From positions 1 to 64,000 of the forward strand of contig JAFTDW010000004.1 of assembly GCA_017454015.1 (NCBI GenBank): a stretch of 64,000 bases of DNA, given 5' to 3'. Position 1 is the first letter of the stretch; every line of letters begins with the position of its first letter. The translations under genes and the position numbers were made by a program. Below are positions 11,509 through 13,724 of this stretch, one piece after another. The notes beneath the pieces are model-generated. The model had not been told where the DNA came from, made no database searches, and worked only from the letters and a program-made list of their open reading frames with translations. The stretch is from Bacteroidales bacterium. Lineage in GTDB: Bacteria; Bacteroidota; Bacteroidia; Bacteroidales; P3.

Positions 11509-11595
11509 CTTGTTTGTACTCTTTCATTTTCAATGTCTTTACGGTGAAGATATCGTGGCGTGATATATCTTATTGTGTAATTTGGCTGTTTTTTT

Positions 11596-11982
11596 ATGAT
11601 TAATTAATGGCAATTAATGTTTAAAAACACACGTCAGCGTATATTTCTGGAAATTAGTGTTGCTCTCCTTTGAAAAAACATTAATCTCCGTACAAGACTA
11701 TTTGTGTTATTTGTGCTATTCGTGTTCAAAAGATTTTGTGGTCGCCTTAATAGAAGTCAATTAAGTAGCTGATATTTAATGATTAATTAATGGCAATTAA
11801 TGTTTAAAAACACACGTCAGCGTATATTTCGGGAAATTAGTGTTACTCTCCTATGAAAAAACATTAATTCCCGTTAATTGTCCATATAATGTGGCATTAA
11901 TTAAGTAGCTGATATTTAATGATTAATTAATGACAATTAATGTTTAAAAACATACGCCTGCGTATATTTCGGGAATTTTATG
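11596..11982 (+). repeat. Three direct repeats, about 60-95 bp each
   Basis: Copies begin at 11596, 11779 and 11919 with ATGATTAATTAATG, followed by CAATTAATGTTTAAAAACA and CGTATATTTC. Copies 2 and 3 are in an exact 140-bp register that includes TTAAGTAGCTGATATTTAATG upstream. Copies 1 and 2 continue into CTCTCCT..TGAAAAAACATTAAT, while copy 3 diverges and runs into a TAATTTTG promoter box. Between copies 1 and 2 is an AT-rich segment with ATTTGTGTTATTTGTGCTATTC-like text. No ORF is present in this 560-bp stretch. Confidence 0.85.
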
Positions 11983-11990
11983 TAATTTTG
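11983..11990 (+). promoter_or_regulatory. -7 box (TAATTTTG) for the candidate structured RNA
   Basis: TAATTTTGC fits TAnnTTTG and stands at the end of the third direct repeat, immediately before the structured region. No strong TTTG element is visible 19-21 bp upstream. Predicted start near 11997. Confidence 0.55.
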
Positions 11991-11996
11991 CACCGT

Positions 11997-12314
11997 CGTT
12001 TCAACCAAAGCCGAAGCGGGGGTTTTTCCGACGCCAGTCGGAAAAACGTTCTGTTAAGAACGTGCTTGCCGAGGCAGCGGGCGGGGCGGCAAGACATATA
12101 AGAAAGACGTTGTAACAGCGTTTATCTGCGGCATAGAGAACTTCGCAAATTCATTAGGCTTAGCAGTAACGCAATGTCAACGTCCATGGTTTGGTATACA
12201 TAATTCTGTATATCATAACGCGTGGGCTTCGGCATTGCTTATTCTAAGCCAAAGGCAATGCGAAGGCCTTCTATGCGGGATAAGCAAAGTGGCAGATTCC
12301 CGCGCTTCTTTTTT
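11997..12314 (+). ncRNA. Candidate structured RNA, about 320 nt, or long attenuated leader
   Basis: This stretch has no ORF but is dense in perfect hairpins. They are: 12022-12032 with 12037-12047 (11 bp, GCCA loop); 12046-12052 with 12057-12063 (ACGTTCT/AGAACGT), sharing two bases with the first; 12065-12071 with 12087-12093 (CTTGCCG/CGGCAAG); 12193-12200 with 12207-12214 (one G-U pair); 12232-12238 with 12255-12261 (GCATTGC/GCAATGC), extended by CTTC/GAAG with a bulge; and 12275-12280 with 12298-12303 followed by six Ts. A TAATTTTG box precedes it and a terminator ends it. It lacks the ends of tmRNA and the conserved core of RNase P RNA. It may be free-standing or a leader that attenuates the lipoprotein genes downstream. 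Confidence 0.6.
12275..12314 (+). terminator. Rho-independent terminator ending the structured RNA
   Basis: GCGGGA (12275-12280) pairs with TCCCGC (12298-12303), then GCTTC and a run of six Ts (12309-12314). The loop is long (17 nt). Because genes on the same strand follow within 90 bp, it could also act as an attenuator. Confidence 0.6.
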
Positions 12315-12402
12315 ATATGTCTCATGGTAAAAATAAGACAACGGCGTTTTCGGGAATCAACGTCAGCAAAAGTTGCACCCGACACGAATCAGGGGTAATA
12401 TT

Positions 12403-13095
12403 ATGAGACATTTTTCTCTGCTTTTAATGTTTTCTATTTCCTTCTTTGCAGTAGGATGTGGAGCTTTACAAAAAATCGTGAAAATTACCGTAGACCAAGA
12501 TGATGCAAAAATCTATGTGGATAATAACTATGTGGCTACAGGTACATACGCAGCACACATAAAATGTGGAGAAGGACATATACGCGTAAAGATTGAGAAA
12601 GAAGGATATGTGACACGGAGATTCAAAATAAGAGAAGACGATACAAGAAATGCTATAGATGTTACTTTAGATCCTGACGAATCATGGAACCAGTCTATAG
12701 CCACCGAAATGGCAAACAAATTTTTCACTGTACCAGTTTCCAAAGCCTACATTGAGCATGCAGGAAGCGAATCAGAAGCAGCAAAACTTGTATGGAAAAC
12801 ATTGCATCAGATACTTATGAATTACATTGAAGAAATAGAAGAGTCGAACCAAATGGGTGGTTATATTCAGTCTGCTTGGGTAGTCAAAGAATTTCCAGGT
12901 GCAGAGGTTAAAGTACGTACACGTGTCATTATCAAAGAAACTAATGCCGGAGGTGATTTGACGTATCGAATAAAATTATGTTCAGAGATTGCACCATACA
13001 ATGGCACAAATGACCAATATGTTGAGTGGTCTAGAATATTGAAAACATATGAACCAATGATATCTGAATTTCAAGCCCGTATAGGTAAAATGTAA
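12403..13095 (+). CDS. PEGA-like domain lipoprotein, function unknown
   Basis: The 230-residue protein has a lipoprotein signal (FSISFFAVGC, cysteine near residue 19) and an N-terminal PEGA-like beta domain, visible as KITVDQDDAKIYVDNNYVATGTY and RVKIEKEGYVTRRFKIRED. The C-terminal half is not recognised. ATG 12403 gives a proper signal peptide; the longer frame starts at TTG 12373. The gene and the one after it are clearly AT-richer than the rest of the window, which suggests transfer. It starts 88 bp after the terminator-like hairpin of the structured RNA. Likely sits in the outer membrane or periplasm. Confidence 0.6.
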   Translation: MRHFSLLLMFSISFFAVGCGALQKIVKITVDQDDAKIYVDNNYVATGTYAAHIKCGEGHIRVKIEKEGYVTRRFKIREDDTRNAIDVTLDPDESWNQSIATEMANKFFTVPVSKAYIEHAGSESEAAKLVWKTLHQILMNYIEEIEESNQMGGYIQSAWVVKEFPGAEVKVRTRVIIKETNAGGDLTYRIKLCSEIAPYNGTNDQYVEWSRILKTYEPMISEFQARIGKM

Positions 13096-13112
13096 ATATG
13101 GAGAGTTTGATA

Positions 13113-13724
13113 ATGAAAAAACTATTAGTAGTAACAGCGCTTTTACTTTATTCAGCAGAGTGGAACCTAAATGCTCAAAGAGTTATTTGGCAGGATGATT
13201 TCGAGACAAGCAAGGGCTGGTCAGAATTTGAAGATGAGGATGGTAAGGCAGTCGTCAGGGATGGAATGCTTATAATTAAAAGTAATGAGGGATGGAGCTA
13301 CATAAGCCGGTGTAAAACTAATCTTGACGGAAATAAGAACTTTACAATCAGTGTGGAAGTTAATGCGAAAGATGGCATAGAGAAAGATCGTTACGTTGGA
13401 ATAATATTCGACTTTAATGATAGGAAGAACTATAAGGTCTTTTATATAGAAAAAGACATGGTCCGGTTTGCTGAATGTCGAGATGGTGTAATCGTGCGCG
13501 ATGAGAAAGATGTGTTGAAAAAACAGAAAAAGGATAAAAAAAATCGCGATAAGAGCATATCGTTGACCTTTGAGGTTCAGAAAAAAGGGCAAAGTGCTAT
13601 GTTTATTGTGAACGAAGAAGAGGCTCTTGAGATGGACGGTATAGAAGTCAAGTCTAACCGAATTGGATTTTTGGTGTCAGGGAATCAGGAAGTGTCTTTT
13701 GACAATGTGAAGATAGTGCAATAA
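13113..13724 (+). CDS. Exported protein with laminin-G/concanavalin-like fold, unknown function
   Basis: The 203-residue product (from ATG 13113) has a signal peptide, KKLLVVTALLLYSAEWNLNA, then a beta-rich domain beginning WQDDFETSKGWSEFEDEDG and ending FLVSGNQEVSFDNVKIVQ, the pattern of secreted concanavalin-A-like (DUF1080-type) domains. No catalytic residues can be assigned. ATG 13098 is an alternative start that adds MESLI before the signal peptide. It follows the PEGA-like lipoprotein by a few bases and shares its low GC, so the two form one operon and were probably acquired together. Confidence 0.6.
   Translation: MKKLLVVTALLLYSAEWNLNAQRVIWQDDFETSKGWSEFEDEDGKAVVRDGMLIIKSNEGWSYISRCKTNLDGNKNFTISVEVNAKDGIEKDRYVGIIFDFNDRKNYKVFYIEKDMVRFAECRDGVIVRDEKDVLKKQKKDKKNRDKSISLTFEVQKKGQSAMFIVNEEEALEMDGIEVKSNRIGFLVSGNQEVSFDNVKIVQ

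Follow-up and report, generated by a model that had tools for sequence, protein, structure and literature searches.

The window, by which we mean the whole 64,000-nt stretch of DNA that was analysed, holds a leader RNA of about 410 nt that extends from a promoter box (11983-11990) to a start codon at 12403 and is followed by two genes for exported proteins (Table 1). The segment 11995-12320 folded at -137.1 kcal/mol, lower than any of 100 dinucleotide shuffles (mean -92.9, S.D. 4.9; z -9.1). A perfect 11-bp hairpin was present at 12022-12047, and a stem followed by CTTCTTTTTT was read directly in the 3' part of the structured stretch; together with the TAATTTTG box, these bore out a preliminary description of a strongly structured RNA with a promoter and a terminator-like end. 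That description had set the RNA at 11997..12314 and had taken a stretch of six hairpins as its unit. The structured stretch proved real, but conserved, covarying sequence runs past 12314 up to the start codon, and the hairpins exist, but the two perfect ones at about 12022-12063 lie outside the conserved core (about 12106-12304). They belong to a 5' domain varying in length and sequence among copies, and their alignment columns are missing from most copies. The transcript would start near 11995, as judged from the promoter box. Three AT-rich 107-nt direct repeats (11585-12014) precede the window copy and overlap its promoter, and similar repeats stand upstream of another copy in the same genome (L007).

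A scan of Rfam, named beforehand as a check, gave 0 matches at gathering score across the whole window; at E<=10 only sub-threshold matches were seen (eukaryotic miRNA, snoRNA and snRNA families and one RAGATH-30 fragment). No gathering-level match to the core was obtained in the window or at 40 further loci, and neither the Rfam models nor ARAGORN found tmRNA, RNase P or SRP RNA in the window, in agreement with the earlier judgement by eye. A full-text literature search, with supplements outside its reach, returned no description of this leader RNA, and the passages available from PMC11109978 and PMC8632094 held no match for 'Bacteroid-'.

Table 1. Features of the window copy of the leader RNA and of its downstream genes (pairing values are from A7, an alignment of 100 diverse copies)
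Feature	Position	Strand	Description
Promoter -7 box	11983..11990	+	TAATTTTG; read directly
Whole leader RNA	11995..12402	+	Judged from the promoter box, core conservation, 3' elements and the start codon next to it; start inferred
5' domain	11996..12105	+	Variable among copies; two extra perfect hairpins (~12022-12063)
P3 local hairpin	12107..12121	+	ACGTTG/CAGCGT; both-side change in 6/6 pairs, 86.1% of cells paired; innermost pair weak
P4 5' strand	12122..12126	+	TTATC; partner 12279-12283; both-side change in 5/5 pairs, 93.4% of cells paired
PA 5' strand	12131..12137	+	GCATAGA; partner 12270-12276 (TCTATGC); hypervariable yet complementary; 98.3% of cells paired
PC 5' strand	12141..12147	+	CTTCGCA; partner 12259-12265; 99.9% of cells paired
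PB 5' strand	12157..12163	+	GGCTTAG; partner 12244-12250; second hypervariable helix
P5 5' strand	12171..12176	+	GCAATG; partner 12233-12238; 96.6% of cells paired, both-side change in 3/6 pairs
P6 5' strand	12182..12187	+	GTCCAT; partner 12222-12227; 95.4% of cells paired, both-side change in 4/6 pairs
P7 terminal hairpin	12193..12214	+	GGTATACA/TGTATATC; both-side change in 8/8 pairs
W	12221..12226	+	CGTGGG; rival partner of E; overlaps P6 3' strand
H8 5' strand	12275..12280	+	GCGGGA; partner 12298-12303; terminator-like hairpin; overlaps PA and P4
E, putative switch segment	12295..12304	+	GATTCCCGCG; three possible partners: H8 5' strand, W and L
U-tract	12306..12314	+	
Start-proximal hairpin	12343..12364	+	Stem 12343-12348/12359-12364; loop L CGGGAATC (12351-12358) complementary to E; read directly
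Start-proximal module	12370..12395	+	AAGTTGCACCCGACACGAATCAGGGG; recurs before other starts in the genus
First gene	12403..13095	+	Lipoprotein (lipobox by eye); weak PEGA match, E 0.0011, 19.3 bits vs. cut-off 20.8
Second gene	13098..13724	+	Predicted exported protein; no Pfam family over its cut-off

The genome that holds the window carried 6 copies by DNA search and still 6 with fuller model scoring. DNA search found copies in 40 of 99 genomes, reaching a single genome outside the genus by a weak match. A covariance model (R1) built from 32 copies matched 64 of the 393 Bacteroidales genomes scanned, in 35 of 206 genera and 25 families by our own tally, and since the filters were strict and at most 6 candidates were scored per genome this figure is a floor. 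With fuller scoring, one genome of the genus had up to 9 matches, short forms included. Beyond Bacteroidales the leader was rare: a phylum-level search hit 3 of 395 genomes. Besides the window's own genome, these were a second Bacteroidales genome and one from a different order of the class, whose short copy (L347) has the same parts by eye. A pattern scan of genome contigs returned at least 114 stretches, and of 12 checked with the model 9 held the RNA and 3 did not (L130, L181, L207). Because of these failures, Parcubacteria and Rhodobiaceae titles among the pattern matches were put down to chance. Named carriers confirmed by the model include metagenome-assembled genomes titled Alistipes sp., Rikenellaceae, Bacteroidaceae and Candidatus Avibacteroides. 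One pattern match among viral contigs (L235) was rejected by the model. For comparison, 185 copies were collected, 86 from the genus of the window's genome (the genus set) and 99 others, one of which (L270) belongs to the same genus; the distant copies came from the best-scoring places of the R1 scan, at most 6 candidates being scored per genome. From 108 distant copies 9 were left out of A7.

The fold was then judged by shuffle and covariation tests, all of which ignore kinship among copies. With sequence anchors to locate the strands, PA was fully paired in 72 of 80 parsed genus copies (6 of the 86 could not be parsed for PA and PB) through 52 distinct 5' sequences, versus a mean of 3.6 and a maximum of 11 with swapped partners (1000 shuffles). 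PB formed runs of at least 7 bp in 70 of the 80 (swapped mean 6.0, maximum 15; 300 shuffles), its last two model pairs failing in many distant copies of A7, and PC occurred among the 80 in compensated variants such as CTTCGCA/TGCGAAG, TCTCGCA/TGCGAGA, TCTGGTA/TACCAGA and CTTAGCA/TGCTAAG. The long-range hypervariable helices PA and PB differ between copies yet stay complementary within each. Because the hypervariable stretches pair inside the molecule, the guide or template RNA raised in the preliminary description found no support, and no partner protein was noticed. In alignments fitted to the model, which lean toward structure, 93.9% of cells paired among the 86 genus copies, with change on both sides at 28 of 52 pairs (score 0.436 vs. 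0.154; 0/500 shuffles), and 92.1% paired in A7, with both-side change at 46 of 52 (0.643 vs. 0.229; 0/500 shuffles). Sliding A7 by 1-3 columns lowered the covariation score to 0.058-0.125. The leader thus has a conserved and covarying, aptamer-like fold, and the covarying pairs anticipated as support were found.

Several further pairings were considered. A hairpin of GAA and UUC around PC was supported outside the genus set by 66 of 98 copies, some rows being misplaced by the parser (shuffled mean 37.2, maximum 51), and had no support inside it (40/86 vs. 34.1, maximum 46). A closing helix, ACATATAA/TTATATGT (12094-12101/12313-12320), was attractive by eye and in the energy fold; it was dismissed on 6-bp runs in 70 of 184 copies versus 61.4 shuffled, maximum 78. 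Two helices proposed by eye, GACGUUG/CAACGUC and a CUUAU/AUAAG kissing loop, were dropped once PA, PC and PB emerged, and the RNAalifold fold of a first MAFFT alignment was poor.

The promoter and the position of the leader were conserved along with its fold. A TAnnTTTG box, which we take to be the Bacteroidota-type -7 promoter box, stood upstream of 172 of 185 copies; it was present in 30 of 561 control windows and, after shuffling, in 88 of 925 upstream sequences. A U-tract (6 or more T in a stretch of 8, no further than 14 nt beyond E) was found in 182 of 185 copies versus 5.3% of 1473 control windows; a GC-rich hairpin with a U-tract, as in intrinsic terminators, therefore lies within the leader, the H8 hairpin being formed in part of the copies. 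Such a box and a terminator-like hairpin with its U-tract in nearly all copies, together with the multicopy occurrence, would also suit a separate gene for a trans-acting small RNA that stands upstream of genes by chance. We regard this as quite unlikely, because the nearest downstream ORF of at least 150 aa in the genus set (n=78) was on the same strand in 74 cases and never on the opposite strand (4 copies had no such ORF), and because covariation extends beyond the U-tract as far as loop L, next to the start codon. The nearest upstream ORF, by comparison, was on the same strand in 48 cases, on the opposite strand in 33 and absent in 1. In 61 of 78 genus copies and 82 of 94 others having an ORF, no more than 110 nt separated the core from the start codon. 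No ORF of 80 aa was in reach of 8 of the 86 genus copies (7 of them within 340 nt of a sequence end) and 5 of the 99 others; one genus copy (L066) had none in the next 480 nt, with 3 kb read. The structured RNA is a 5' leader on the coding strand of the downstream gene, not a stand-alone RNA.

This fixed orientation and distance also bear on whether the copies are a mobile or repeat element, such as a MITE-like hairpin spread by transposition. The number of copies per genome, the unrelated neighbours and the repeats upstream of the window copy could be read in that way, but an element of this kind would be expected to vary in orientation and place relative to genes, and its spread would not account for the promoter upstream or the compensatory changes in the helices. 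Phage and plasmid collections gave no match. We therefore hold a mobile origin very unlikely, and the mobile RNA gene of the preliminary description was not supported. Among relatives, the upstream 80-aa gene had the leader beside it at the own genome's locus only, where gene order turns over too fast for the comparison to tell.

The genes behind the leader share no evident function. The Pfam search took 72 of 78 downstream proteins of the genus set, of which 26 were BspA-type repeat proteins (LRR_5), and 89 of 94 from outside it, which matched at least 47 families, the largest with 6 members; the copies beside unrelated genes that had been expected as support were thereby found. The genes outside the genus include kinases, a D12 methyltransferase, an MBOAT acyltransferase and a glycosyl transferase, and small HTH proteins were also seen by eye. 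There was thus no coherent gene set of the type regulated by a riboswitch. By a crude signal-peptide rule, products looked exported in 58 of 77 genus and 55 of 94 other cases versus 15 of 48 control ORFs of the window. An earlier impression of similar text before exported-protein genes therefore stands as a bias but not as a rule. Of the two exported-protein genes for which a leader had been suggested, it adjoins only the first. PADLOC matched single downstream proteins to methyltransferase models and two to PD-T4-6 models, and showed no general link to defence among them. By sequence, the gene behind the leader in L401 resembles a type I methylase subunit, and those in L397 and L270 resemble D12-type DNA methyltransferases. 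In a subclass of the genus set, a small ORF of 51-59 aa comes first and a gene for a fimbrillin-like lipoprotein next. Such small ORFs were seen in L079, L082, L093, L096, L105, L107, L110, L114, L115 and L120, with 51-59 aa where complete and the pattern KxYxAPMVEVxxARVERGF... An anti-start inverted repeat, sought in 23 copies before BspA genes, was not established (mean run 8.70, shuffled maximum 8.70; 18 vs. 14.1, maximum 19).

Between the U-tract and the start codon the leader carries modules which also occur elsewhere. There are also short forms, about 160 nt in length, in which the parts of the long leader are preserved. Of 13 genomes searched, 8 contained the exact pattern AAGTTGCACCCGACACGAATCAGGGG and 0 the reversed pattern used as a control; in G006 it also occurs within an operon. 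On one stretch of that genome (L041; G006:C44 535, 3021, 3619) the GTTGYRCCCGACACG module stands at three places, as if before successive genes. In one compact leader (L389) the start-proximal module is the DUF805b RNA (Rfam RF02914, cis-regulatory, 35 nt), with E 1.6e-10 and the gathering score reached; a second locus with DUF805b and the core was found with the model (L427) and a third by eye only (L434). The compact core of L434, upstream of a DUF805b match, was missed by the model, suggesting that the count understates the family. DUF805b, which reportedly comes from a 2017 paper, resembles the present modules in lying directly before start codons in Bacteroidales and in serving as the start-proximal module of the compact-core leaders at L389 and L427. 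It differs in its length of 35 nt, in being far commoner and in occurring mostly without this core; it matched in 168 of 247 genomes at E<=0.001, in 114 over the cut-off, and the window copy has 0 matches at gathering score. Up to 23 matches were seen in one genome and 4 in the window's own, G187, G140 and G244 being among the carriers, mostly with no core upstream. Being so common and mostly core-free, DUF805b deserves study as a start-proximal element. The compact relative with DUF805b at its 3' end could hint that the leader is a known class (DUF805b, another Rfam family, tmRNA, RNase P or SRP RNA) diverged past recognition, but 29 of 30 DUF805b loci had no core detectable with the model (1 of 30 had one), and with the Rfam results for the core given above this reading is scarcely credible. 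Since DUF805b takes this place in some relatives and AAGTTGCACCCGACACGAATCAGGGG recurs elsewhere, also before core-free starts, the start-proximal modules look exchangeable.

Segment E, at the 3' end of the core, can pair with three partners. Pairing with loop L in runs of at least 6 bp occurred in 87 of 185 copies versus 27.3 in shuffles (maximum 38; 200 shuffles) and outside the genus set in 42 versus 14.2 (maximum 25). H8 paired with E in 114 of 185 (shuffled 72.4, maximum 86) and in 55 of 99 outside the genus set (31.8, maximum 41), with no clear excess inside it (59/86 vs. 54.6, maximum 62). For W and E the counts were 160 of 182 overall (148.9 shuffled, maximum 153) and 79 of 98 outside the genus set (70.9, maximum 77), with no excess over shuffled partners inside it. 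The lack of excess for W:E and H8:E in the genus set is explained by both strands barely varying there, where E:L was the sole pairing of E above shuffles. A handful of paired changes of W and E were seen in other families (CGTAGG/CCTACG, CGTGAG/CTCACG, CGTGGA/TCCACG), and copies L298 and L320 mismatch. Since W doubles as the 3' strand of P6, and since H8 shares positions with PA and P4, these helices compete by geometry. Mutually exclusive helices, as in an expression platform, were thus supported for three partners of E outside the genus set and for E:L inside it. A plain fold of the 3' end of the window copy favoured E:L, at an energy that is not unusual (z -1.5). E:L, the best supported of the three pairings, lies beside the start codon, and the modules near the start look exchangeable and also precede starts without the core; both points would fit a leader that acts mainly at translation, as a folded scaffold of the start region or an element that recruits ribosomes, the U-tract being no more than a linker. 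We consider this unlikely, since in nearly all copies the H8 hairpin and the U-tract together have the shape of an intrinsic terminator, and since covariation of H8 is seen outside the genus.

At the level of sequence, comparison of the copies showed the architecture of the leader: a promoter is followed by a long core, a branched rod that covarying helices close, then by E, the U-tract and, near the start codon, a hairpin whose loop can pair with E, all on one strand. The window copy probably belongs to a new class of cis-regulatory leaders that are switchable and serve both to attenuate transcription and to shape the start region. The attenuating leader of the preliminary description is supported in that orientation and distance to the start are fixed, the terminator-like hairpin has its U-tract, and E has rival covarying partners. 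During transcription, E would fold back on GCGGGA and form a terminator hairpin with the U-tract. Alternatively, W would hold E in a pseudoknot and transcription would read through, after which pairing of E with loop L, near the start codon, could set the access of ribosomes. A ligand, a protein or another cell-wide signal that stabilised the conserved core would choose between the folds. Since the genes have no common function, a cell-wide signal or a general expression device would be favoured over a pathway metabolite, and a cell-wide signal as the input is our guess. A wider reading, which we offer as possible but doubtful, is that of a Bacteroidales-wide RNA switch through which one cell-wide signal would set the expression of accessory and surface genes that are changeable (adhesin-like repeats, fimbrillin-like lipoproteins, DNA methyltransferases, kinases). 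Start-proximal modules would then be exchangeable, the hypervariable helices would diverge so that leaders in one cell do not cross-pair, and one segment would choose between terminator, pseudoknot and start-codon clamp.

The leader is a large RNA with strong covariation, common in a major gut order and yet without an Rfam family for its core, and it offers many ready-made test loci per genome. The sharp prediction is that expression is decided by a single segment of ten letters that has three partners. Since the leader stands before surface and accessory genes, a real switch, if the reading is true, would give access to the way in which the surface of these bacteria is changed. A place is also found for DUF805b, an orphan motif of 35 nt, as a start-proximal module that can be attached to a far larger RNA.

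Large orphan bacterial RNAs such as OLE, ROOL, GOLLD and HEARO are mostly stand-alone. The present RNA resembles them in its several hundred nucleotides, its complex fold and its orphan status, whereas it is a leader fixed to a start codon and has no Rfam match to any of them. Transcription-attenuating riboswitches have a conserved folded leader, rival helices sharing a segment beside a U-tract, and many copies per genome, and the present leader is like them as a kind, sequences aside, in its fold, its rival helices by the U-tract and its multicopy occurrence. It differs from them in having no known ligand and no coherent metabolic gene set, and in possessing three rival partners, one of them beside the start codon, and hypervariable helices that remain complementary.
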